64,000 nucleotides of DNA from IMG/VR virus record IMGVR_UViG_3300017971_002536, positions 62,001 through 126,000 of that record. One strand, 5' to 3'. The position numbers were made by a program, and so were the translations under genes. This stretch comes from a virus. A model generated the notes under the pieces. It saw only the letters and a program-made list of their open reading frames with translations. It was not told the DNA's origin and searched no databases. Below are positions 12,097 to 61,322 of this stretch, piece by piece (position 1 is the stretch's first letter; each line of letters begins with the position of its first letter).

Positions 12097-12129
12097 TACA
12101 AATATACAACATTTCAGAGTAAAAGTCAA
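12097..12129 (-). promoter_or_regulatory. Cassette-type promoter (TTGAC ... TATATTTGTA)
   Basis: The minus strand has TTGAC (12125-12129) and, 18 bases later, TATATTTGTA (12097-12106). This fits the Bacteroidetes TTG/TAnnTTTG promoter type. The sequence from CAGTTGAC to the -7 element is almost the same as at 52098-52130. It lies directly after the sheath terminator and drives cassette 1. Confidence 0.75.
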
Positions 12130-20065: not shown

Positions 20066-21757
20066 TTATACACCTACTATCTTTTTCACCACTACATTCT
20101 TTTGTGTTTCTTTTTCTTCCTTGTCAAATCCACGTATAACTACAACTATTCTCTTGAGTGATAATAAATACGGCCCACGTTTGCCCGACCCTTGTAATAC
20201 AAACTTTACACGAACCGTGTTTCCCCTCGTGTTGAATCTTCTTATTCCCTCTTTACGCCAATCATATGCTTGATAATGATTTCCACCATCATTACTTACA
20301 AATACCTTGAAATATGTGTCGTCACCGGGTTCAAATACCATATTTGCTATTTTATTTATTTGTATTGATGAAATATTCGTTTCATCTTCAAGTTGAAAAT
20401 CACCAAAAACAATATTTCCTTGTGATACAAGTTCCAAAAAATTAGGAAAATTATTTATATCATACGATATAAACGCACTACCATCACCATCATAACCACC
20501 TAATACCCAATATTCAGTTCCCTCAGATGCTTGAACTTTATGATATGGATGTGGACACCAAGTATATGTAAAATTAAGAGCATTTGGCCCCGTTGTCGGT
20601 TGTGTCGTCGTTGTTCCTTTTTTTCTATATCCATACGCATTTATAGGCCCAACTCCTACCCAATTTTGATTCTCTACATCTATCCAACCAAAATTTCTAC
20701 CTGTCCAAGTTGCGTAATTTCTAACTATAGGCATATCACTTCCATATACCGGATGTTTTTTAGCATGTATACCCTCAATAAACAATAATACTGTTCTCCA
20801 TCTAGCATCAGTATTGTACCTTGTACCAGCTTCTAACAAAGTTGGAACATTCGTTGTTCCTTCAATACAAGCACTTATATCTACTTTACAAAATCTTCCA
20901 TAATTGGTTGATATTATCATAATATTTGGATCGTCGTTATCAGGCACCCATAAATGTGTATATGTATCATTTCCGCCCATTATACTATCAGTTCTTACTT
21001 GAAATGCGGACGCGGTTACTTCAGATGGATCGGCTTCCGCATAAGAAGCTGTAGCACTTGGATTTACTACCACTCTCAACATAGCATCCGCCCTTGACAC
21101 ATAATAAAGTCGATCATGTTCTGCATCATACCAACAATGACCATATCTATGACTATTTATTTGATTTTTTACCGTTAAATTTTCAGCAGTTTCACTTGGA
21201 ATGTGCCAACGAAATACCGTTGTAGTTCCTTTATCATCAGGACATATATAAAGATAGTCGCCAACTACCTCTAATCCACTATGATATGTATATCCAACTT
21301 CATCACTCGGCAAACCATTTCCTGCTTCCGTTAAAACCTCAACCGATAAACTCGATGTATCACTATAATCTATTCGTCCTATATTATCATATACCCAATT
21401 TCCAAAATAAAAATGTTTCCTTACAGGATCTACAGCACAACTTGGATAATACGCATAACCGTTCATCGGTGTACTATTATTGTAAACAACAGTAAAAGTA
21501 CCATCGTCATTCAATCGTCTTATCCCTACTCCATCAGAATATCCAGCACAAAATATAAGATTTCCATCAACTTTTACACTATCTTGTGACAATCCACGAT
21601 CACCACTCCCTGCTCCACCGCGGCTTGTCCAATTATTATCCTTTATATTCCACTCTAAACCTATATGTGTTCGCCAAACAAACTCAAAATATACATCTTG
21701 TTTACTTACAACTTGTTCATTTTGTCCTAACTCAAAACTTTTTATCTTTACTGCCAT
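20066..21757 (-). CDS. Putative beta-propeller fibre protein (paralogue 1)
   Basis: A 563-residue protein, paralogous to the next gene. Shared blocks are AVDPVRKHFYFGNWVYDNIG and DYSDTSS, then YHSGLEVVGDYLYICPDDKG, RYGHCWYDAEHDRLYY, and near the end GNIVFGDFQLEDETNISSI and FKVFVSNDGGNHYQAYDW. A basic C-terminal tail (KEEKETQKNVVVKKIVGV) may mediate attachment. It reads as a propeller followed by a beta-sandwich, an architecture used for carbohydrate or protein binding. No catalytic signature seen. Confidence 0.7.
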   Translation of the reverse strand: MAVKIKSFELGQNEQVVSKQDVYFEFVWRTHIGLEWNIKDNNWTSRGGAGSGDRGLSQDSVKVDGNLIFCAGYSDGVGIRRLNDDGTFTVVYNNSTPMNGYAYYPSCAVDPVRKHFYFGNWVYDNIGRIDYSDTSSLSVEVLTEAGNGLPSDEVGYTYHSGLEVVGDYLYICPDDKGTTTVFRWHIPSETAENLTVKNQINSHRYGHCWYDAEHDRLYYVSRADAMLRVVVNPSATASYAEADPSEVTASAFQVRTDSIMGGNDTYTHLWVPDNDDPNIMIISTNYGRFCKVDISACIEGTTNVPTLLEAGTRYNTDARWRTVLLFIEGIHAKKHPVYGSDMPIVRNYATWTGRNFGWIDVENQNWVGVGPINAYGYRKKGTTTTQPTTGPNALNFTYTWCPHPYHKVQASEGTEYWVLGGYDGDGSAFISYDINNFPNFLELVSQGNIVFGDFQLEDETNISSIQINKIANMVFEPGDDTYFKVFVSNDGGNHYQAYDWRKEGIRRFNTRGNTVRVKFVLQGSGKRGPYLLSLKRIVVVIRGFDKEEKETQKNVVVKKIVGV

Positions 21758-29680: not shown

Positions 29681-32600
29681 TTATCTCTTGTACTCCACAT
29701 TTAATTTCTTTATATCCTTTCTTTCGCCATATACTACATAATAATACTCTGGCTTTCTCCTATCAAACCAACTCTTGTTCTTTATCTCTATTCTCCTACT
29801 TGTCGCCGAAACTACATAAAGATTTTGTGGACGACCAATCGGTGTTAGAGTCACTGTTATAGAATCTTCGTCAACTAAGTTATACCAATAGTTAGGTAAC
29901 TCAATAATGTTCCCTCTCGTCTTGCCTCGATAATATATACCATACTCAGGACCTTCAAGTGATCCATAACGTAATCTATGTCCAGGTTTTGTTGGATGTC
30001 CAATGTCAAATGATTTAGCTTCAGCAAAAAATGTTCCACTAACATGAACATCACCGAATCGAGAAATATATCCATCACTGGCAGTCCAATACGCATTATC
30101 AGCCGTTACATTTGTAAGATTTGAACCATTACCATAATACGTTGAGGCAGAAACATCACCGGTGACGTTCAAACTTCCACTTATATTTACACTCGATGTA
30201 AATTGAGAACTCAAACCGGCATTCTCAATAAATAAACCATGTCTATCAGCTTGAGCGTCTTGAAATCCTAACCATATACTATTATCATTGTTATTAGTTA
30301 GTCTGTTTGCCGTTGAAGTTCCAGCACCAATTACAAATGTGTTTTCACTTGAACCTATTTCAATAAATTTACCAGCAATCAAAAATGTATCAGGATAAGC
30401 ATTAGTTACAAGATTATCTTGTCCACCAAGAACAACACCATCAATACCACCTTGTATTGTATTACGTATACCACCAATTATCGTGACGGCATACGGATCG
30501 CCTATCATATTAGCACCATACGCACCAAGAACAGCACAATTAAATGCTCCATCACCAAATCTATTTTGTTCTCCACCAAGAATGATAGAATAGTCAGATG
30601 AACCAGATAATTCTTGTGCGTCTCCACCAATAATCACAGAATAATTAGAATCATTTAAAATACCACTTTCAACACCTAACATTACAGCAAGATAAGAACC
30701 AGAAATTGTAGCACCAAGTGCGTTAGCAAAAGTATAAGCTGAATTATTTATAAGTAACGTATCACCAAATGCGAATACTTCAGAATTATTACTCGTTATA
30801 TTATTATCAAATCCTGCAATCAAACCATTCGAAAAATCACTAACATAATGATTTGAACCAACAATCAAACTTCCAAAAACATCGTCCACTATTCCGGTTG
30901 TATTGTCAGCAAAATCACATACAATAGAGCCCCATATCCTACTTGCTGTTTTAGCAGCTGTAAATGGATTTAATACCACAATAGAACCGGTAATGTCTTG
31001 AACAGTTAATGGAATGTCAGTTGATGGATTGCGTCTTCCAATAATAACAAGAGATTCTTCAAGTCCGGTTACATTACTTTGATATTTACCGGCGATAAGT
31101 ACAGAATTATTAACATCGAGACTTCCTGTTATTGTAACATCACTCACACGTTCAATGTGACCATCAGCAAATGAACCGGTCCACAATCCACCTTCACCCG
31201 GTGATATGTTTGTAAGTCCAGATCCATCACCAATAAAAGATGAAGCACTAACTTGTCCAGTAAACCAAGAATTATCATAACTTATTAACGCAGCAACTAC
31301 ATCATTTTCAGCAAATCTATGTTCACCACCATTAGGCACATTATACCAAAAATCATTTGTTGTAAATCCATTTCCAATGTATCTTAGTGACGCACCCGGT
31401 GATCCAGCAGCAACATTCGTCATAATAAATCGTGATGCTCTAACACTTCCACTAACCTCTAACTTTTGTGTTGGATTAGTCATTCCAATACCAACGTTAC
31501 CGGTTAAACCAGATCCCCAGCGACCAGGTTGTAAGATTAGATCAGCACTTTGAGTTGCTTCCATATAACCATATGTACCATTGTAACCAATAGCCATAAA
31601 TTCAGTATCAGTTGGATCACCTATTCTAAAATACGCATCAGATGTAACACCATATGAACGAAGTTTCATATATTGTGTTCCAGCTTTTGTCGCATCAAAA
31701 ATAAATCCACGAGTAGTTGTGTCGCCAGAACCACTAAACATCCAATAATCATCGTCAGCATTTTCAACGAATTTTATAGTCATTTGTTGTGGCGATGCAT
31801 TAAGAGTCAAATCACCACTACTATTTAATAATAATCTCGCCGTTCCAGATCCAGCTCCAGTTGTCGCACCACTCCTAATACCAAATATACCATTATCATT
31901 CATTATGTTATATGTATGAACACTCGATTCTAAGAAAAATCGAGCACTATCAGTATTATCATTTGTGTCGGGACTAAGAACTAATCCGTTTGCTCCGGCA
32001 GCAGTTATATCTAATGTAGTTGATGGAGTAGCTGTATTTATTCCTACATTACTAAATCTATGTATGTCGCCACCCGAAGCAGTCCAATATCCTTGTGATA
32101 AACCACTAAGTTGTGAACCATCACCATAAAAACGGGACGCAGATACGTCACTCCAAACATGAAGTGAAGCGGTTCCGACAGCAGGTTGAGCCGTTCCTAT
32201 TCCAACATTACTACCGGTAACCACAAGAGCATTAGTGTTGAATTTTCCGGCGACAACTCGATCATCGTCAAATACCTCTAATATAGGTAATCCACTTATA
32301 TCACTTACAGCAAATAAACTTCCACTCAATTCATCTAATACTTGGAATAGAGCACCATTTTGACCCTCAACTAAAAAGGCTCTACTTCCGGTATCTTGTG
32401 AATAAACATGAAGTTTAGCATCAACACTACTTCCACTTACACCAATACCAACAGAATTTGATCCACTATTCAACCATACTACTGACGCACTCTCTTGCCA
32501 GATTGACGCAGATAAGGCGACATTTGGATCGGTTGAAGTTCCTGCATTCTCAGCATATGACGCTGTTACAGCAAATAAAGATGTGCTCGATGAAATAGCA

Positions 32601-35600
32601 ACACTCGCACTATCAGCGTTATCCGCATAAAGAGCATGACTTGATGAAACAACACCAGTCACATTAGCTCCATCGCCATAGAAAGCTGATGCTGAAACAT
32701 TTTCCCAAACGTGTAGTGATTCTTGTGGCGAAGTTGTATTTATACCAACACTTCCGGAAAATGTCGAAATACCACTTTCTTGTACACGAAATCTATCAAT
32801 TAAATCACTATCCTCAACAACCAATAAGGCTGCGGTAGTAGCACCAGCTCTAATCAAAACCGCCGTTGTTTCAGACGTATTTTGAGTGAAATATGCTCCA
32901 TACGAATCTTGACCACCAAAATAACTTTGATCAGCAAATATAGTTTGTGTCGCACGAATATCACCGGTTACGTCTAATTCATACGAAGGTGTAGTATCTC
33001 CTATACCAACTTTATTTTTGAAATAATTTACTGTTTCACCAAATTCAACCCAACGATTAGCAGCAGTTGAAAATGGAAATAAACCAAGTTGAATTGAATA
33101 TGAAGCGTTGGCAGCCCAGTGTTCTGCGTCTCGACCTTCCCAACGAATTACTCCGGTTTCACCCTCAGAAGCAGAAAATTCGAAATCAACTAAATTCAAA
33201 TCAGGATTTTCAATCATCATTCCAGTAATACCGGTTCTACTTTGTAATCTTATTCGTGTCGTACCAAGTGTGTCGCCAGTTTGTTCAATCACAAATTCAT
33301 TATCAGCAGTTGTAAGATGGGTAGAATCTTGTATCTTCAATGTTCCAGAAATATGGACATCACTGACTCGTTTGATGTATCCGTCAGAACCAGTCCAATA
33401 TGAACCACTACCAATAGGTGTATCTATTCCAGTAAGATTACTTCCATCACCAAAATAAGTTGAAGCAGAAACAATAGATGCGGAAACCGGACCATCAACA
33501 ATAAGACTTCCACTTATATTTACACTCGATGTAAATTGAGAAATTAATCCGGCACTCTCAATGAATAGTCCATGTCTATCAGCTTGAGCGTCTTGAAATC
33601 CTAACCATATACTATTATTGTTATTATTTGTTAATCTGTTGCTCGTTGATGTACCGGAACCTATTACAAATGTATTTCCACCTGATCCAATTTCAACAAA
33701 CTTACCTGCAATCAAAAATGTATCAGGATACGCATCAGTTACAAAGTTGTCTTGACCACCAAGTATAACCCCATCTATACCACCTGCCATAGCATTACGT
33801 ATACCACCAATTATTACATTACTATACGCACCACCATCCATTTGTCCTGCATATGCACCAATTATGGCATTATTTTGAGTACCGTCGCCAATTTGATTTT
33901 GTTCTCCACCAAGAATAACAGAATAATCAGACGAACCACTTATTGTATTCGCATCCCCAGCATAAATACCAGCATAATTTGTATCATTTATTGTATGATT
34001 TATTCCTATCGCTACAGAATCCGCCGATCCAGACATAATAATTGTATCACCAAGTGCGAAAACAACATCCGATTGATAAATTTCATTATATTGTCCAGCA
34101 ACAAATAATCCACCATTATCACTTGCGGGACTTACGGCTTTATTATATAATCCAACAATAAAACTATCAGTAGTGCTATCTATTGTATGAGCTAAACCTG
34201 CAATAAACGAGTTTCCAATATTTTTGACTTCGGACGCACCATATAATTGAATAATACTTGAATTAATATTACTTGCTGATATATCACCAGCTGCAGGAGC
34301 GGAATTTTTATAATCTCCACCCGCATCAAACATTACTAAACTTGATGTTATTTGTGTCGCGTAAAATGGACTGAATTGTGGAATATAATTTCTATCTCGG
34401 CCAAACAATAACATATTTTTGTTTAAGTTAGAATCTATTGAACCTGTTATTCCATTATTCCCAAGAATAAAATTAGTTTGAGTGTAGGAATTGTTACTCG
34501 CATCAAAACTACCAGTTACTTGTACTCTACTACTTCTTTCAATATATCCGGCTTGACTTCCCGTCCAATATGAACCACTACCAACAGGAATAGGTAAGTT
34601 TGTAAGATTCGCACCATCACCATAAAATGCTGAAGCCGTTACATTACCCCAAACATGAAGTTTATCAACAGGAGCTGTTGTTCCAATTCCTATATTATGT
34701 GAATTATTTATATATAAATCTTCACCATCATTTGCTCCCAAAACAAGTGGATTATTTGTTCGGCCATACAATTTAATTGCTCTATTTCCTAACCCATCAT
34801 CTAGCGCTACTATTTGTGATATTGTTCCGGTATTATCTCCTAAACTTACTAAAACGATTCCACCACCGGCATTTCTTTTTACAATAAGTGGAAGGCCAGT
34901 ATCAGATATTGAAAGAGAACCTGTTATTTCATGAGTATTAGCTACCGCATTTCCAAGTTTTGTTGAACCGGCTACATCAAGTATTGCTTGTGGATCGGTA
35001 GTTCCTATACCTACATTTCCACCACGTTTGAACGCTACACGACCGGTCGTTCCATCATGAAATAATAGTTGTGTTCCATCACTCGTTTCTGCTGGATTTA
35101 ATATAGCCCATGTCAATGAACCAGTTCTATAAAAACGTAGTTGATCTTGTCCACCTGCATCACAATCTACTCCAATCATTGCACTCGTATTTATATTCGC
35201 ATGAACATATAAATCGTTTTGTGGATTTGTCGTTCCTATACCCACATAACCCAATCTATGTATTTCATTCGCAGCACTCATTGTCCAATAAGCATTCTCA
35301 GCCCATGAAGCTGATGTAGCAAATGAAGCATAACTTGATGAAATTACTCCAGTTACATTTGCTCCATCACCGTAAAAGCGGGACGCTGATACATCACTCC
35401 AAACGTGTAATGATGAAGTTCCTACCGCATGACTATCCGTTCCAATACCTACATTTGAAGTTGAACTTGAAACACTAAGTATAGCGTCACCAACCTTCAA
35501 CAATGAATCAAACGGAGCAATACCTTGAATCTCAAGTTGTGATTTTGGAACAGTCGTACCAATACCAACATATCTACTAAAAGGTATTCTCATTACTTCA

Positions 35601-38600
35601 GTACCAGATACAGTAAATGAAAAATATGATCCACCACCACCAGAACTCAACGCCATATAATCATTTGATTGTATGTTAGCACCATTTCCACCGTCGCCAA
35701 GATCGGCAAATGTAAGTGTTGGTGTAGCAGACGCATCAAGTTTTATGAATCCATTTCCACTATTATCTTTAGCAATAATTGTTCCACTCACGTGAGCATT
35801 TCCAAGAACATGAAGTGCTTCAGTTGGATTTTGAACTCCTATTCCAACAAGATCAGATGTATCATTCAAAAATACATCATTTCCATTCTTTTGCCAGATT
35901 GAAGCTGATGTAGCAAGATTACCAGTTATGTTATCTCCATTTCCATAAAAAGCAGAAGCAGTTACATCGTTCCAAACATGAAGTCCACCCGCACCACCGA
36001 CAGGTGATGTCGTTCCAATACCTACTTCATTCAAGAAATATGAACGGCTACCACTTTGTTGTATTGATCCAGTAAATGAATGTATATCACTTGCATCGTC
36101 GCCAAACTTAGTCGATCCACTTGAATATAAAATCGACGATGAAAAATATGTCGTTTGTATCTCGTTGGCGAAAAGAACGCCGTATATAGTTGCGTCACCG
36201 TTTACCACAAGTCCACCATCTATCGACATCGACTGATCAACCTGTATGTTGGACGCTGTTATTCTTGGAGTTATTATGTTGGACGCTGTTATGAATCCCT
36301 TTACCGTAATAGCATCCTCAAATTGAGCATCACTCGATGAAATACTTGTCCACACATGAAACTTAGCTACAGGTTCTGCAGTTCCTATACCTATATTGCT
36401 TCCGGTCGTGAATACAAGAAACGGTTGATTGTCGTCCAGGGACGCTTCACCTACTTGTTCCATATCTCCACCAGTTAAAAAGGCGAACTTGAACTTTCCA
36501 CCATCCGAATCATCTACTCCATGCGCCCAAGATATGTCATTGTTGTTGTAATAACTTATCAACATATTTCCACGAGAATCACCGGATTCAAAATATGAGT
36601 TGTGAATCGATAATCTTGTGTCACCTGCAGAAGCACTATCTATTATCATGTGAGCGTTTCCACCGGAAATATGAAGTCTCGCTTTTGGTGAAGTATTTCC
36701 AACTCCAACATAACGAGCAGTATCTACAAGAAATACCGTATTTAATCCATCACTACCTGTCCAAGTGTTTGAAGCACCATCAATACCACTCGTTCCGGAA
36801 GTTCCTGCGGAACCAGTAGGCCCAGCAGAACCAGTAGGCCCAGTAATTCCACTTGTACCTGAAGTTCCATTTATACCTGAAGTTCCACTTGTACCTGACG
36901 CACCACTCGTTCTACGTTTAAATTGACCACTACCACTATCCCAAACTACAAAGTCGCCAAGACCTTCATTCGATTGTATATTCCTCAAACCTAATGAACC
37001 ACTAACATCTACGCTCGACGTTATAACCATATCTTGACCACTATTATTCAAAAAGAGTCCATATACATTAGCAGCAGATGTTGGACGAAAAGCTAACCAA
37101 ATACTATTATTATTATCATTTACTAATCTATTTGCTGCTGAATTTCCGGATCCAATTACAAATGTATTTCCACCTGATCCAATTTCAACAAACTTACCTG
37201 CAATCAAAAATGTATCAGGATAATCGTCAGTTACAAGATTGTCTTGACCACCAAGTATAACTCCATCTATACCACCAGCTATAACATTACGTATACCACC
37301 AATAATAACTGATCCATATGCGCCACCATCAATTTGACCTTGAAATGCAGAAATAATAGAATTATTTCCCGATCCACCACCAATTTGACCTTGTTCACCA
37401 CCGATAATTGTTGAATAATCACAACCACCACTTATTTGACTTGAATCTCCAACAAAAAGACCTGATCCCCACTCACTGTCCATAAAATGATTATATCCAC
37501 CAATAATAGCTGCATCACCAGATCCAGAAGATATGGATGAATCAGATAACATAAATACTGCATATGCTCCATGAAGTTTATTTCCGTATCCCCCAACCCA
37601 AACAGTTTGATTATAATTGCTAGATAAACTATAAAGTTCATTTGATTGACCAAAAATAAAACTACCATCACCTAAACGATATACATTATTTGTATCTCCA
37701 CCTACAAATGAAGCTCCAATAGAATCAATACTTCCTCTACCGTATTGTTGAACAATACTGGCAACAATATTACTTGCTGAAAGAGCTCCTGCAGCTGGAG
37801 CTGAACCTTTATAATCTCCACCAGCATCAAACATTATTAAACTTGATGTATTTTTTGTAGAATAAAATGGACTGTATTGTGGAACATAATTTACATCTCG
37901 ACCAAACAATAAAATATTTTTTCCAAGATATGTACTTATTGATTCATTTAATAAAGCAGCATTCCCAAGAATAAAATTATTTTGAGCATAAGAATTATCA
38001 CTTACATCAAAACTACCGGTAACTTTTACATTACCTACTCTTTCAATATAACCAGTAAATGAACCCGTCCACAACGAACCACTACCAACAGGAATAGAAA
38101 GATTTGTAAGTCCAGATCCATCACCAGTGAAAGATGAAGCTGATACATCACCGTCAACATTCAAACTTCCACTAATATTTACACTTGATGTAAATTGAGA
38201 ACTCAAACCTGCATTTTCAATAAACAATCCATGTCTATCAATCGCAGTTGATCGGCGAAAACCTAACCATATACTATCAGTATGAGTGTTTATTAATTTA
38301 TTTGACGAGTTAAAACCGCGACCTAATACAATAGCATTATTAACACCATCTATTGTAATATATCTACCCATAATCATACTGGAATTTGCTCCACCGATTA
38401 TCCTATTGTAATCTCCACCAATAATTACATTATACGCTCCAGCATCCAAATGATTATCAAATCCAGCTATTATAGCATTTCCATAAGTACCATTATTTAT
38501 TGATGAAAAATTAGAAGAATATATACCACTACTATATGCGTTGTCGCCAATCGTACTTGAATCACTACCAACAACTGCTACTAAATTTGAACCTGAAATA

Positions 38601-39199
38601 CTAACATTTTCTCCACCAACAATAGCAGAACTATCTACACTATCTATTATTGAATGTGCTCTACCAGTAACAATATTAAAGTCAGCATCATTTCTTAAAA
38701 GATGATCATCCCCTACTACTACATTATAATCAGAACTACTAATAGTTGAATTATATGTCATTAATAAAAGATTAGATATATTATTAATTTTATTTGCGTC
38801 GCCACCAACAATACTAAAACTCAAATATCCTGTTACCGTATTATCAACACCTACTACAATAGAACCTTGTTTAACTCCATTTACATTGTGATCTTGACCA
38901 ATTATTGCAGCATTTTGAATACCATCTCCGGTTATAGTATGACCTGTACCTACTATTAACTCTTTTGATACATCAAAACTTCCGGTAATTGATAAACTTC
39001 CGGATATGTTCACTGATCCACTTGTAAGTGAATTTGTTGTAAGTACCGTAACAATTTCATCCACACTACCACTTTTATGTATGTATACCTTTCCATCATA
39101 CGTATTTATGGCTAATTCACCTAACTCTAATGATGAAGTTGTTGGAAGTTTGCCAGGAATGGCGCTGCGGATGTGCCTGATAAGATGTTGTCTTGGCAT
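29681..39199 (-). CDS. Giant tail fibre/adhesin (3172 residues)
   Basis: The largest gene of the window. Domains from N to C: a short attachment region (RHIRSAIPGKLPTTSSLELG, common at the base of environmental phage fibres); two YadA-like beta-roll blocks with repeated I/V-I/V-G-G steps (about DNA 38190-38950 and 37020-38000); a collagen-like GTSG/GPTG stretch (DNA about 36766-36920); a long series of 'VGIGTTxPxxxLHVWxxVSASxFYGDG' units; a third beta-roll block (about 33520-34480); further VGIGT units; a fourth block (about 30180-31090); and a C-terminal domain starting KSFDIGHPTKPGHRLRYGSL, typical of fibre ends in marine T4-like phages. AGGAG site 9 bases before ATG. It likely forms a very long trimeric fibre. 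Confidence 0.85.
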   Translation of the reverse strand: MPRQHLIRHIRSAIPGKLPTTSSLELGELAINTYDGKVYIHKSGSVDEIVTVLTTNSLTSGSVNISGSLSITGSFDVSKELIVGTGHTITGDGIQNAAIIGQDHNVNGVKQGSIVVGVDNTVTGYLSFSIVGGDANKINNISNLLLMTYNSTISSSDYNVVVGDDHLLRNDADFNIVTGRAHSIIDSVDSSAIVGGENVSISGSNLVAVVGSDSSTIGDNAYSSGIYSSNFSSINNGTYGNAIIAGFDNHLDAGAYNVIIGGDYNRIIGGANSSMIMGRYITIDGVNNAIVLGRGFNSSNKLINTHTDSIWLGFRRSTAIDRHGLFIENAGLSSQFTSSVNISGSLNVDGDVSASSFTGDGSGLTNLSIPVGSGSLWTGSFTGYIERVGNVKVTGSFDVSDNSYAQNNFILGNAALLNESISTYLGKNILLFGRDVNYVPQYSPFYSTKNTSSLIMFDAGGDYKGSAPAAGALSASNIVASIVQQYGRGSIDSIGASFVGGDTNNVYRLGDGSFIFGQSNELYSLSSNYNQTVWVGGYGNKLHGAYAVFMLSDSSISSGSGDAAIIGGYNHFMDSEWGSGLFVGDSSQISGGCDYSTIIGGEQGQIGGGSGNNSIISAFQGQIDGGAYGSVIIGGIRNVIAGGIDGVILGGQDNLVTDDYPDTFLIAGKFVEIGSGGNTFVIGSGNSAANRLVNDNNNSIWLAFRPTSAANVYGLFLNNSGQDMVITSSVDVSGSLGLRNIQSNEGLGDFVVWDSGSGQFKRRTSGASGTSGTSGINGTSGTSGITGPTGSAGPTGSAGTSGTSGIDGASNTWTGSDGLNTVFLVDTARYVGVGNTSPKARLHISGGNAHMIIDSASAGDTRLSIHNSYFESGDSRGNMLISYYNNNDISWAHGVDDSDGGKFKFAFLTGGDMEQVGEASLDDNQPFLVFTTGSNIGIGTAEPVAKFHVWTSISSSDAQFEDAITVKGFITASNIITPRITASNIQVDQSMSIDGGLVVNGDATIYGVLFANEIQTTYFSSSILYSSGSTKFGDDASDIHSFTGSIQQSGSRSYFLNEVGIGTTSPVGGAGGLHVWNDVTASAFYGNGDNITGNLATSASIWQKNGNDVFLNDTSDLVGIGVQNPTEALHVLGNAHVSGTIIAKDNSGNGFIKLDASATPTLTFADLGDGGNGANIQSNDYMALSSGGGGSYFSFTVSGTEVMRIPFSRYVGIGTTVPKSQLEIQGIAPFDSLLKVGDAILSVSSSTSNVGIGTDSHAVGTSSLHVWSDVSASRFYGDGANVTGVISSSYASFATSASWAENAYWTMSAANEIHRLGYVGIGTTNPQNDLYVHANINTSAMIGVDCDAGGQDQLRFYRTGSLTWAILNPAETSDGTQLLFHDGTTGRVAFKRGGNVGIGTTDPQAILDVAGSTKLGNAVANTHEITGSLSISDTGLPLIVKRNAGGGIVLVSLGDNTGTISQIVALDDGLGNRAIKLYGRTNNPLVLGANDGEDLYINNSHNIGIGTTAPVDKLHVWGNVTASAFYGDGANLTNLPIPVGSGSYWTGSQAGYIERSSRVQVTGSFDASNNSYTQTNFILGNNGITGSIDSNLNKNMLLFGRDRNYIPQFSPFYATQITSSLVMFDAGGDYKNSAPAAGDISASNINSSIIQLYGASEVKNIGNSFIAGLAHTIDSTTDSFIVGLYNKAVSPASDNGGLFVAGQYNEIYQSDVVFALGDTIIMSGSADSVAIGINHTINDTNYAGIYAGDANTISGSSDYSVILGGEQNQIGDGTQNNAIIGAYAGQMDGGAYSNVIIGGIRNAMAGGIDGVILGGQDNFVTDAYPDTFLIAGKFVEIGSGGNTFVIGSGTSTSNRLTNNNNNSIWLGFQDAQADRHGLFIESAGLISQFTSSVNISGSLIVDGPVSASIVSASTYFGDGSNLTGIDTPIGSGSYWTGSDGYIKRVSDVHISGTLKIQDSTHLTTADNEFVIEQTGDTLGTTRIRLQSRTGITGMMIENPDLNLVDFEFSASEGETGVIRWEGRDAEHWAANASYSIQLGLFPFSTAANRWVEFGETVNYFKNKVGIGDTTPSYELDVTGDIRATQTIFADQSYFGGQDSYGAYFTQNTSETTAVLIRAGATTAALLVVEDSDLIDRFRVQESGISTFSGSVGINTTSPQESLHVWENVSASAFYGDGANVTGVVSSSHALYADNADSASVAISSSTSLFAVTASYAENAGTSTDPNVALSASIWQESASVVWLNSGSNSVGIGVSGSSVDAKLHVYSQDTGSRAFLVEGQNGALFQVLDELSGSLFAVSDISGLPILEVFDDDRVVAGKFNTNALVVTGSNVGIGTAQPAVGTASLHVWSDVSASRFYGDGSQLSGLSQGYWTASGGDIHRFSNVGINTATPSTTLDITAAGANGLVLSPDTNDNTDSARFFLESSVHTYNIMNDNGIFGIRSGATTGAGSGTARLLLNSSGDLTLNASPQQMTIKFVENADDDYWMFSGSGDTTTRGFIFDATKAGTQYMKLRSYGVTSDAYFRIGDPTDTEFMAIGYNGTYGYMEATQSADLILQPGRWGSGLTGNVGIGMTNPTQKLEVSGSVRASRFIMTNVAAGSPGASLRYIGNGFTTNDFWYNVPNGGEHRFAENDVVAALISYDNSWFTGQVSASSFIGDGSGLTNISPGEGGLWTGSFADGHIERVSDVTITGSLDVNNSVLIAGKYQSNVTGLEESLVIIGRRNPSTDIPLTVQDITGSIVVLNPFTAAKTASRIWGSIVCDFADNTTGIVDDVFGSLIVGSNHYVSDFSNGLIAGFDNNITSNNSEVFAFGDTLLINNSAYTFANALGATISGSYLAVMLGVESGILNDSNYSVIIGGDAQELSGSSDYSIILGGEQNRFGDGAFNCAVLGAYGANMIGDPYAVTIIGGIRNTIQGGIDGVVLGGQDNLVTNAYPDTFLIAGKFIEIGSSENTFVIGAGTSTANRLTNNNDNSIWLGFQDAQADRHGLFIENAGLSSQFTSSVNISGSLNVTGDVSASTYYGNGSNLTNVTADNAYWTASDGYISRFGDVHVSGTFFAEAKSFDIGHPTKPGHRLRYGSLEGPEYGIYYRGKTRGNIIELPNYWYNLVDEDSITVTLTPIGRPQNLYVVSATSRRIEIKNKSWFDRRKPEYYYVVYGERKDIKKLNVEYKR
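36766..36920 (-). repeat. Collagen-like GTSG/GPTG coding repeat
   Basis: The minus strand encodes a run of Gly-x-y triplets (GTSGTSG, GITGPTGSAGPTGSAG, GTSGTSG) within the giant fibre. A similar shorter run lies in the 1387-residue fibre near 40870-40985. Collagen-like triplets trimerise phage fibres. Confidence 0.8.
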
Positions 39200-52097: not shown

Positions 52098-52130
52098 TAT
52101 AAATATACGAAATTTCAGAGTAAATGTCAA
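52098..52130 (-). promoter_or_regulatory. Cassette-type promoter (TTGACA ... TATATTTATA)
   Basis: The minus strand has TTGACA (52125-52130), then 17 bases, then TATATTTATA (52098-52107). The whole block from CAGTTGAC onward is almost identical to 12097-12132, including CTCTGAAAT in the spacer. It drives cassette 2. Confidence 0.75.
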
Positions 52131-52257: not shown

Positions 52258-53895
52258 TTAAACTTGATCAATATGACCCACATATATCTTCCCGTAAAAT
52301 TCTGGCCTTACGATTTTCTTCGCGTAACGAGTCATAACGCCTCTGCGAGGAGTAAAATTATCAGGATCATAAATCAATGGAGTCATAATAAGTGGAATGT
52401 AAGGTGAATACACAGCACCAGTTTCCAAGAAATTACTTCCTCTAAATCCGACCAAAGCGATATTTTCAGTAAGGTAAGGATTTTTGTAAACGGTGAAACG
52501 TGAATTCAACATACCAACTTTTTGTACACCCATTGCGAATGATTGTTGGTTTCCATCAGTATCAGCAGCATATCCAGGAATAGATTCAATAACGGTAGCA
52601 ACGTCAGGACTAACAACGATGAAGTTAGCTCCACCGCGAAGTGTTAATTGATGAATTTTGTTACTTACTTTTTGAATCTTATTTCCAAGAGTTTGATACC
52701 ATTCATTCTTTGTACCAGTATGAGAACCAGCATCATAGAAATTGGTTTTACCATTGTTAATTTCATATCCAGGAAGAGCTGACCAGTAATCAGTAGTAAT
52801 AGCGTTAGAAATAAGCATGTCAAGGATTTCTAAGTCAATTTCCATTCCAATATATTCACTCAAGAGAGCAGTTAACTCAGCTTCAGCGTCAATAGAGTGA
52901 TATGCGTTCAAGTCTTGAGCCAATTCAGGAGTCCAAATAGCTTTCAACTTACGAGTTTTGGCGACGATAGGTTCTTGAGCAACCGACAAGTCGATTTCAG
53001 GAATATCAAGTTTAACAAGACTTCCAGACTCAGAAGTATCTTCGAAGTCACCACGAGTATCAGCAGTAGGTTGTTTGTGATAACGAATATCATATTCACT
53101 TGCTGAGAAGTTAGCGAATGCAGCAGCACTACCAGAAACGATCCATCTTACTGTAGCACCAACTTGAGTTGTGTAAGCAGACAAATAAGATTGAATACCA
53201 CTACCACTAACAGAAAAAGCACGAACACCTTCGACATCAAGGTCAGATAAGTTACCAGTGTTATATGAAAGAGCGAAAAGTGTACCGGCAGCCATAGAAG
53301 CACTAATATGACCATCGTCAAAACCAACATCAGCCCATGTGACAGAAGCAGTAGCGAAAGCGTCACCACTTGGAGTAGTATCAAGATCAGCAGTTCCGCC
53401 ATATCCATAATCATTAATTGAGTATCCGAAACGTCCACCACCGTAAAGACCACCAGTAGCTTCATCAGTCGTTCCAGGAGTTTTACCACCACCAGTTCCA
53501 CCAAAAACAGATTGATTTTGGGTAAAACCAGGTTGTGTACCACTACCATACTTAAAGTCAATGTAAAATACAAGACCGGATGGTAAGTTCATAGGTTGAA
53601 TCGATACGAATTCTTTAGCGGCAACTTCACCGAAAATTCTACGTACCAAAGGAAGAGCGACACCAGACCATTGTTCAGCACCACTACCACCAGTTTGAGA
53701 AACTTCGTCCAATAATTGGCGAGCTTGATTCTCTAATAGAATAGCCATTCCATAAATTTCATGTTCTTCGTTCATACCATCAAGAAGACCTGTTGGCTCC
53801 CATTTTTTCACGAGTCCACGAGTTTGCTCTAAAAGAGCATCATATGGATTTTGACCTTCCATTAATTTGTTTAAATTAAATAAGGTTTTACTCAT
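52258..53895 (-). CDS. 23: Major capsid protein (T4 gp23-like)
   Basis: A 545-residue protein. Key segments are KKWEPTGLLDG near residue 31, AILLENQARQLLDE around 51-64, GVALPLVRRIFGEVAAKEFV and SIQPMNLPSGLVFYI, the last being the gp23 hallmark (VQPMNxPTG in T4). Near the C-terminus VGHIDQV. The N-terminal about 64 residues are probably removed by the prohead protease: LLDE64 matches the (L/I)xE cleavage rule, and the site lies shortly before the conserved core, as in T4. GGAG ribosome site. It follows the scaffold gene by 30 bases. A strong terminator follows. Confidence 0.95.
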   Translation of the reverse strand: MSKTLFNLNKLMEGQNPYDALLEQTRGLVKKWEPTGLLDGMNEEHEIYGMAILLENQARQLLDEVSQTGGSGAEQWSGVALPLVRRIFGEVAAKEFVSIQPMNLPSGLVFYIDFKYGSGTQPGFTQNQSVFGGTGGGKTPGTTDEATGGLYGGGRFGYSINDYGYGGTADLDTTPSGDAFATASVTWADVGFDDGHISASMAAGTLFALSYNTGNLSDLDVEGVRAFSVSGSGIQSYLSAYTTQVGATVRWIVSGSAAAFANFSASEYDIRYHKQPTADTRGDFEDTSESGSLVKLDIPEIDLSVAQEPIVAKTRKLKAIWTPELAQDLNAYHSIDAEAELTALLSEYIGMEIDLEILDMLISNAITTDYWSALPGYEINNGKTNFYDAGSHTGTKNEWYQTLGNKIQKVSNKIHQLTLRGGANFIVVSPDVATVIESIPGYAADTDGNQQSFAMGVQKVGMLNSRFTVYKNPYLTENIALVGFRGSNFLETGAVYSPYIPLIMTPLIYDPDNFTPRRGVMTRYAKKIVRPEFYGKIYVGHIDQV

Positions 53896-55047: not shown

Positions 55048-55170
55048 TACGTTTCTCCAATATTTTAATATGGAATTTAACACTATTCGGTGAGTGTCAA
55101 TGACATTATAATAGTTACTACGTGACGTTATATAAGATAACGTATTTAGGTAGGTCTGATTTTTTCAAAT
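55048..55170 (-). promoter_or_regulatory. Structured 5' leader of scaffold-capsid operon
   Basis: Between the promoter at 55175 and the scaffold ATG lie about 125 bases, far longer than other leaders here. The minus strand can form CGTTAT-CTTAT-ATAACG and ACACT-CACCGAAT-AGTGT hairpins and a short GTCATTGAC stem. The leader may stabilise the mRNA or control its translation. No known riboswitch class is recognised. Confidence 0.4.
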
Positions 55171-55579: not shown

Positions 55580-55822
55580 TTATAATGATTGTCGCCGTGT
55601 CTCGTGTCTCTGACGAGCCTTAGCTTTAGAAAGTTTGTCTCGTTTGATTGCAGATGGTTTTGTGTATTGTTGTGTCTTTTGTATGTCCAACATTAACTCA
55701 CTATCTTTTATTATTCTCTTTAATTTCTTTAACGCATACTCTAAGGCTCGATCCTTATCAATCTTTTTATTTAATTCAACATAATAACCTCTTAACCGTA
55801 TGTTATCTACATTCTCTGGCAT
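55580..55822 (-). CDS. rpsU: Ribosomal protein bS21 homologue
   Basis: An 80-residue protein from ATG 55822; an in-frame ATG at 55855 would add 11 residues. The core is bS21-like: YYVELNKKIDKDRALEYALK, KLKRIIKDSELMLDIQKTQQ, YTKPSAIKRDKLSKAKARQR and a basic end. bS21 sits near the platform and the 3' end of 16S rRNA and influences initiation. The 55822 start is preceded by a perfect AGGAGGT (55826-55832), the strongest such site seen in the window. It lies in the late head operon among small internal-protein-like genes. Phage-encoded S21 is known in some large phages. Confidence 0.85.
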   Translation of the reverse strand: MPENVDNIRLRGYYVELNKKIDKDRALEYALKKLKRIIKDSELMLDIQKTQQYTKPSAIKRDKLSKAKARQRHETRRQSL

Positions 55823-55825
55823 AAT

Positions 55826-55832
55826 ACCTCCT
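55826..55832 (-). promoter_or_regulatory. Perfect Shine-Dalgarno of bS21 gene
   Basis: AGGAGGT on the minus strand, 3 bases before the bS21 ATG (4 counting from AGGAGG). Other genes here mostly have GGAG or AGGAG. It lies within the codons of the longer alternative start, which argues for the shorter protein. Confidence 0.7.
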
Positions 55833-55866
55833 GTTGTTTTGCTTCTTTGTGACATTTATATTACCT

Positions 55867-56169
55867 TTATTTTTTTAATCCTCGTGCTAATTCACGATAA
55901 AATTTTGCTATTTTTTGAGCAGCCATAATGTCAAGAGACGCAAAAGCATCATGATAATCACTACTTTTAGGCTCCCTACTCGGCAACGCAGCAATTAATT
56001 TTTCTTTCATTTCATCAGTATCATTTTGATCTAATAAATCAGTTACTGATACTATATCGTCAGCTATTCTTAATAAATAACTACTCACCACTCCAGCTAC
56101 TCTATCAACTTTATCTTCCGTTATTAGAGTATTCTCATTTAAAATCTTGTTCCATTGTTCTTTTTTCAT
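55867..56169 (-). CDS. Small protein with class A leader
   Basis: A 100-residue protein beginning MKKEQWNKILNENTLITED, a textbook class A leader with candidate cut after LNE (12) or ITE (18). The mature part is helical: VDRVAGVVSSYLLRIADDIV, KEKLIAALPSREPKSSDYHD, AFASLDIMAAQKIAKFYREL. The ribosome site and first codons (56158-56183) are identical to those of the gene at 10025-10282. No family recognised. Likely packaged in the head if the leader acts as a targeting peptide. Confidence 0.65.
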   Translation of the reverse strand: MKKEQWNKILNENTLITEDKVDRVAGVVSSYLLRIADDIVSVTDLLDQNDTDEMKEKLIAALPSREPKSSDYHDAFASLDIMAAQKIAKFYRELARGLKK

Positions 56170-60713: not shown

Positions 60714-61322
60714 TTATTCTCCCATATCTATAAGAATATCAGTTACGATTTCTTGTACTTTACAATATTTGTTTACACATACTTGACCATACTTATCAAC
60801 ACTTTCTTGAATAGGTTTCATAAACGCACCGTGTGTCGATGGATTACTTACCATATCAAAAGCAATCAACTCAAAATCGTCTTGGACGACCGCACCATGT
60901 TCAGCAGATTCTTGAACCGATCCCAACCCACGAGAAGAAATACCTACAAGAATACCACCTTTCAATAATTCTTGAAGAATTTTTCCTGCAGGAGTATTCA
61001 ACACTTCTATTGTACCGATTAAGTCTTTACCTTCCCAATGCATTTCAACTATATTATGACTTACATTAGCTAAGTTTACGACAGAAGAATCGGGATGATC
61101 TAACTCACCCAATGCTCGTTTTTCGCCAATCAACTGTTCATATTTTTTCGCTTCCCTGGCGAGAATAGGTTGTGGATATACACGACCATTTTGATTTTGT
61201 GCTTCTGCTCGTTGTAATATACCCTTGATCAAAATCTTACCATTGTGTACTTTCATTGATTCTCGTATTACACCACCCGCTATTTCTAAAGGCATATACT
61301 CCGCTAATATCTGCTTATTCAT
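60714..61322 (-). CDS. 21: Prohead protease (T4 gp21-like)
   Basis: A 202-residue protein. Recognisable motifs are QNQNGRVYPQPILAREAKKY near residue 43, the active-site His in GELDHPDSS (His75) and the Ser in GISSRGLGS (Ser129 or 130), then DDFELIAFDMVSNPSTHGAF. This is the gp21 serine protease fold. It cuts scaffold, major capsid and internal proteins after (L/I)xE sites during head maturation, and finally itself. It stands amid the genes whose leaders carry such sites. GGAG ribosome site. The T4 gene is about 212 residues, a close match. Confidence 0.9.
   Translation of the reverse strand: MNKQILAEYMPLEIAGGVIRESMKVHNGKILIKGILQRAEAQNQNGRVYPQPILAREAKKYEQLIGEKRALGELDHPDSSVVNLANVSHNIVEMHWEGKDLIGTIEVLNTPAGKILQELLKGGILVGISSRGLGSVQESAEHGAVVQDDFELIAFDMVSNPSTHGAFMKPIQESVDKYGQVCVNKYCKVQEIVTDILIDMGE

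Follow-up and report, generated by a model that had tools for sequence, protein, structure and literature searches.

A phage ribosomal protein bS21 without the aromatic anti-Shine-Dalgarno contact accompanies Shine-Dalgarno-rich genes in a clade of T4-like phages

The large, uncultured phage described here encodes a ribosomal protein bS21 and is rich in Shine-Dalgarno (SD) sites, and among its relatives the two features occur together. The best reading, in which we place about as much confidence as doubt, is that the protein is a replacement bS21 that permits SD pairing and is fitted to an SD-using host. From promoters, relatives and a genome survey we infer that this host is most likely an SD-using member of Bacteroidota in the wide sense, outside the class Bacteroidia. 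The link between bS21 and SD sites in the clade would then most likely be due to host ribosomes that already read SD. The published idea for phage bS21 is preferential translation of phage messages, and what marks those messages has been left unsaid. To our knowledge, neither the bS21-SD association nor the split into two phage bS21 classes reported below appears in the literature that we searched.

The window, a stretch of 64,000 nucleotides, comprises bases 62001-126000 of a 168,383-base IMG/VR phage record (G000), and the minus strand holds nearly all of its genes (Table 1). The initial annotation had placed a bS21 gene behind an AGGAGGT site, and this was confirmed. PF01165 matches residues 26-72 of the 80-aa frame with 31.2 bits (E 1.7e-7), above the curated cut-off of 27, the core K.KPS...KR motif is retained, and phrog_21469 'ribosomal protein S21' also matches (E 0.006). 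It is the single bS21 in the whole 168-kb record. The gene is located between those for the prohead protease and the major capsid protein, its neighbours lie on the same strand, and Mel-JY01 and other relatives have this order too; the protease counterpart was found by tblastn to Mel-JY01 21029-21673 and immuto 124660-125232. Capsid (51-57%) and terminase (43-52%) identities, the tail sheath and the capsid tree place the phage among T4-like myoviruses of the immuto/Mel-JY01/LR756508 clade. A further record (L009/L015) is the same phage reassembled, with 100% DNA identity over 12 kb, and is not independent. Neither tRNA genes nor, at Rfam gathering scores, known RNA elements were found in the window. 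The window also encodes, at 29681-39199, a tail-fibre-like protein of 3172 aa that contains GTSGTSG repeats and numerous near-repeats. In addition, the motif TATATTTATAT, the reverse complement of the T4 late-promoter core, occurs 22 times in intergenic gaps of the window (for example near 55170 and 14990) against 2.7 expected, and relatives have it too. The same phage encodes homologues of poly(A) polymerase and of the RNA-repair polymerase RlaP (L007:2083-3531, L004:7309-8265), a pair hinting at RNA or tRNA repair.

Table 1. Positions in the window of the bS21 gene, its initiation signals, neighbouring genes and promoters
Feature	Position	Strand	Basis
bS21 (ribosomal protein S21) gene, 80 aa, short start ATG 55822	55580..55822	-	PF01165, phrog_21469, synteny
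AGGAGGT SD site of the short start, 7 bp, -11.7 kcal/mol	55826..55832	-	sequence, energy rank
Optional N-terminal extension MSQRSKTTGGI from in-frame ATG 55855 (91 aa)	55823..55855	-	ORF list
Weaker SD-like AAAGGT of the long start, -4.0 kcal/mol	55863..55868	-	sequence
Codon of Ala69, aligned to Flavobacterium johnsoniae bS21 Tyr54	55616..55618	-	alignments
Major capsid protein, T4-like	52258..53895	-	phrog_138, E 2.8e-70
Prohead protease counterpart	60714..61322	-	50% to the Mel-JY01 gene so annotated
Promoter TTGACA-N17-TATATT, then gene with AAAAGGAG SD	52102..52130	-	
Promoter TTGACT-N17-TATATTTG, then gene with AAAGGAG SD	12101..12129	-	

The SD richness is real, but it extends to about 60-65% of the genes and not to nearly every gene, as had been stated at first. 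An SD core (GGAG, GAGG or AGGA) lies upstream of 62% of the 157-174 genes called across the record, versus 8-11% of internal ATGs. Genes were taken from a simple ORF picker, and the percentages are blurred downwards because the first ATG was taken as the start. Enrichment of G peaks at -12 to -8 upstream of the genes, and the highest SD share in a 10-kb block with several genes is 0.9. The genes for DNA polymerase, helicase, recombinase and exonuclease carry SD sites. A restriction of SD sites to late genes, expected if bS21 unlocks SD late in infection, was rejected for this genome, since replication and promoter-proximal genes have them. The SD-less genes show A at -12/-13 with frequencies of 0.44/0.50, versus 0.63-0.73/0.59-0.66 in SD-poor phages. 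In the related record G003 (L158-L163, the record of L012), all 12 genes within 10 kb around bS21 carry SD sites; its other 10-kb blocks mostly have shares of 0.2-0.4, with 0.6-0.83 in the next two blocks downstream, and modules of one phage differ in SD use.

The AGGAGGT of the bS21 gene occupies -10 to -4, three bases 5' of the ATG, a spacing about 2 nt shorter than the genome consensus. Its energy, computed with a generic 16-nt 16S tail, is below the gene median of about -7 kcal/mol and among the strongest of the genome, and sites as strong precede 2 of 174 genes with a 12-nt tail and 5 of 174 with the 16-nt tail. Use of the long start would place AGGAGGT within the coding frame, as Thr-Gly-Gly. 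Both starts recur in the closest relative, L016, and an in-frame counterpart, MSQKTGGK, occurs in L016 and L116. The short start is favoured because in L018, whose frame contains no ATG further upstream, a strong AGGAGGG precedes the start at a similar spacing; the short start is the likelier one, and both could be used. L016 and L018 have a strong site at the corresponding place, and strong sites occur in three of the four members of the window's own clade. In clade-B and L011/L012-type phages the bS21 SD is average (-5.8 to -7.2 kcal/mol; strong in one of 12 measured), and therefore the special strength is a feature of the window's small clade. The proposal that bS21 regulates its own synthesis through this site was not supported. 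Autoregulation of the F. johnsoniae rpsU type goes with the outstanding SD of the genome and a criterion, published for Bacteroidota, of below -13 kcal/mol (PMC9976891); the present site misses that value and is not unique, and two genes of the record do lie below it. Many clade-B and L011/L012-type phages (L011, L012, L024, L032-L039, L119) have an apparent TTG start after GAGGT in bS21, and TTG or GTG starts are also frequent in rpsU of SD-using Bacteroidota genomes.

In the F. johnsoniae ribosome, A1534 is held by stacking with Tyr54 of bS21, and the protein yield of an SD-bearing message rises about threefold on ribosomes with the Y54A substitution (PMC9976891). The initial annotation had proposed comparing the anti-SD-contacting residues. 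For the one contact compared, using the F. johnsoniae sequence verified against PDB 7JIL, the phage protein has Ala at the Tyr54 position, and the Tyr or other aromatic residue of an anti-SD-occluding Bacteroidia bS21 is absent. At this position relatives carry Leu, Val, Ile, Arg, Lys or Met, and Phe, as counted by eye, in L062 only; those that are SD-rich have Leu, Val, Ile, Lys or Arg. The L062 protein (L062:1-11235) is a very divergent bS21-like frame undetected by PF01165; with Phe at 54 and an SD share of 0.40, it is an exception to the two classes described below. A bS21 type of Bacteroidota beginning MIGVNVKDNES (L217, L225, L227-L229, L231, L234) combines Arg54 with genomes whose sampled parts are SD-less, and therefore SD-lessness does not need Tyr54.

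That bS21 is linked to SD-bearing phage genes, as the initial annotation supposed, is borne out as an association within the clade. Relatives were selected by capsid protein, and the records counted cover the bS21 site and at least six genes. The SD share per contig is bimodal among them. With SD-rich defined as 0.3 or more, a line set after the bimodal values were seen, 31 of 32 records with bS21 are SD-rich, versus none of 16 without it (Fisher p 7.5e-12, which is descriptive only, as the records are related). Exceptions with bS21 and few SD sites are LR756508 (L088) and L010. On the capsid tree, in which some forks are open, the bS21-bearing, SD-rich state is found in the window clade (5 rows) and in a large clade (37 rows), and also in Mel-JY01, L052 and L062, which sit among SD-poor phages that lack bS21. 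A sensitive search found no bS21 in the complete Flavobacterium phage immuto or in two long SD-poor records.

A second class of phage bS21 emerged from records retrieved with F. johnsoniae bS21 as the query (L174-L194). Position 54 is Tyr or His in these phages, and SD cores precede 3.5% of their genes versus 7% of control ATGs. In a bS21 tree with few columns and many weak forks, the aromatic class is nested within Tyr54 proteins of Bacteroidia, and the class of the window forms a distinct phage lineage that has no clear cellular relatives and is also separated from the bS21s of proteobacterial phages. The host was also sought from this tree, and no affiliation resulted, the phage lineage standing apart. 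The contrast between an aromatic, SD-less class and a non-aromatic, SD-rich class supplies a definite mark of phage messages, one that purified ribosomes would allow to be tested simply.

Among cultured phages, the capsid and terminase are closest to those of Mel-JY01 and the Flavobacterium immuto phages, and Rhodothermus phage RM378 is a distant relative. Promoter motifs were counted in gaps upstream of genes. In G000, TTG-N19..21-TAT[AC]TT occurs 5 times against 0.4 expected, with TTG-N20-TAT[AC]TT as the conserved form, and TATAAT 0 times against 0.5 expected. The corresponding counts in immuto are 36 against 0.7 and 2 against 0.5, and G007, G047 and Mel-JY01 behave in the same way; the T4-like phages of Pelagibacter (HTVC008M) and Methylophilales (Melnitz) have TATAAT only. 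Therefore, the promoters of the phage look Bacteroidota-like. A phage sigma factor was considered as the source of this promoter type, and searches for sigma-70 regions 2 and 4 gave no match in G000, G007, Mel-JY01 or immuto (RM378 is an exception with a match), although a divergent late factor could escape such a search. Promoters and closest cultured relatives together point to Bacteroidota in the wide sense. The 'Microcystis phage' Mel-JY01 (PP395634; L125, L126, L173) has 22 TTG-N19..21-TAnnTTTG promoters against 0.6 expected and groups with Flavobacterium-type phages; a member of Bacteroidota living with Microcystis is its probable host.

SD use within Bacteroidota was surveyed in genomes of the phylum to which a Flavobacteriales metagenome-assembled genome (MAG) belongs; the slices sampled are small, at 20 kb, and some genomes were picked for high SD. 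Ten genomes with Arg54 bS21 have SD shares of 0.19-0.46 (control 0.04-0.08), and three SD-less genomes, two of them also with Arg54, have 0-0.06. TTGAC-N17..19-TAnnTT promoters number 5 against 0.8 expected in the SD-using genomes, and 1 against 1.6 expected in the SD-less ones; these are small numbers, and the form fits the TTGACA promoter of G000. The survey suggests that SD use with an Arg54 bS21 exists in parts of Bacteroidota and is overlooked by the usual statement that the phylum is SD-less. Other routes to the host were tried and abandoned. Searches of 396 Bacteroidota genomes gave no CRISPR-type matches to the phage, the DNA matches being low-complexity or repeat-like hits and phage contigs in the MAG itself. 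The metabolic genes (sugar-nucleotide, methyltransferase and glycosyltransferase genes) are too mobile to be used, and MAG binning was distrusted because the bins conflict, one sister contig lying in a Flavobacteriales bin and another in a Euryarchaeota bin.

A host in some other SD-using phylum, with bS21 an ordinary phage copy of a ribosomal protein that does nothing SD-specific, is possible though doubtful. The SD share of 0.62 exceeds that of any Bacteroidota genome sampled, bS21 phages of Pelagibacter and Methylophilales have shares of 0.43-0.49, and the N-terminus of clade-B bS21 resembles, by eye, that of the pelagiphage protein. However, the closest cultured relatives infect Flavobacterium or, in the case of Mel-JY01, have Bacteroidota promoters, the promoter type differs from that of proteobacterial T4-like phages, and the bS21 tree splits the clade from the bS21s of those phages.

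For the preferred reading, a replacement bS21 fitted to an SD-using host, the course of events may be pictured as follows. The bS21 of this phage-specific lineage would be expressed in quantity from the capsid-gene block via its strong SD site, and would replace host bS21 on 30S subunits. The anti-SD would be left free to pair, because the aromatic residue by which the 16S tail is pinned is missing from the phage protein, and ribosomes carrying it may stay or become suited to SD-bearing phage messages. In an SD-using Bacteroidota host, the SD sites and the non-aromatic bS21 would fit the host's own translation and sharpen an existing ability; in a Bacteroidia host, the phage bS21 would create SD reading.

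The initial annotation had favoured the second case, an SD-blind Bacteroidia host in which phage bS21, like Y54A, frees the anti-SD so that ribosomes prefer phage messages. We consider this unlikely. It would agree with Ala at the Tyr54 position, with the roughly 3-fold rise in SD-reporter output caused by Y54A in F. johnsoniae (PMC9976891), with the co-occurrence of bS21 and SD, including in Mel-JY01, which is placed among SD-poor relatives and has textbook Bacteroidota promoters, and with the sister contig binned in a Flavobacteriales MAG, although binning is weak evidence. However, the gene behind each conserved CAG-TTGAC-type promoter copy of G000 has an SD-like site (6/6). These promoters, judged from their host-type form, are presumably early, and therefore the host ribosome would have to read SD before any phage bS21 has been made, unless the protein is brought in by the virion; replication genes bear SD sites as well. 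Moreover, a phage of an SD-blind Bacteroidia host should avoid SD, be A-rich at -12/-13 and use Bacteroidia promoters, and in G000 the promoter type alone is compatible. The SD sites of the promoter genes and the weak A signal in SD-less genes thus favour a host that already reads SD. The premise of an SD-blind host is probably wrong: SD-using Arg54 Bacteroidota exist and are the simpler host, and where phages have a Bacteroidia-type bS21, the aromatic residue is retained and SD is avoided. Re-programming of such a host is less likely than the reading with an SD-using host. It is likewise improbable that the non-aromatic bS21 is a translation switch exposing an anti-SD that the ribosomes of its Bacteroidota host otherwise hide, and that the SD sites of the clade evolved because bS21 is carried; if so, gain or loss of the bS21 gene would decide the SD use of a phage lineage.

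Finally, bS21 might be abundant but act off the ribosome or as a decoy, its strong SD serving high expression only. The very strong though not unique SD, the position in the capsid block and the divergence from cellular bS21 (PF01165 gives only 31 bits) would agree with such a role. We regard it as very unlikely, given that the K.KPS...KR core is retained, that another phage bS21 is incorporated into ribosomes and that phage ribosomal-protein genes are under purifying selection (PMC6375957).

The replacement reading can be set against four known systems. In F. johnsoniae rpsU (McNutt et al. 2023, PMC9976891), a strong SD also precedes the bS21 gene and residue 54 has a role; however, rpsU is there the sole SD gene, below -13 kcal/mol, whereas most genes of the present phage have SD and bS21 reaches -11.7. 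Entry into E. coli ribosomes is known for the bS21 of pelagiphage HTVC008M (Mizuno et al. 2019, PMC6375957), and in the only ribosome test known a viral bS21 of another lineage strongly reduced bulk in vitro translation (PMC6375957), which speaks against the replacement reading. HTVC008M is likewise T4-like and lacks an aromatic residue 54, but its bS21, the one for which ribosome entry has been seen, belongs to another lineage of the tree, its host is proteobacterial and its promoters are TATAAT. The lake phages of Chen et al. 2022 (PMC9723584) are large myoviruses that infect Bacteroidetes and carry bS21 near prohead protease and capsid genes, and ribosome substitution was proposed for them. 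All 61 of their bS21s have an aromatic residue 54 and are Flavobacteriia-like, and the genes run antisense to the capsid genes; the present bS21 has Ala, belongs to a separate lineage, lies on the same strand as the capsid gene and occurs in an SD-rich phage. A phage of that type would also be SD-less, with a bS21 nearest to Flavobacteriia, and the present phage has none of these traits. Mel-JY01 (PP395634) differs in its SD share of only 0.27 genome-wide, its full TAnnTTTG promoters and its named host, a cyanobacterium, but it shares with the present phage the capsid clade, the order prohead protease-bS21-capsid, a non-aromatic residue 54 (Lys) and SD use above background.
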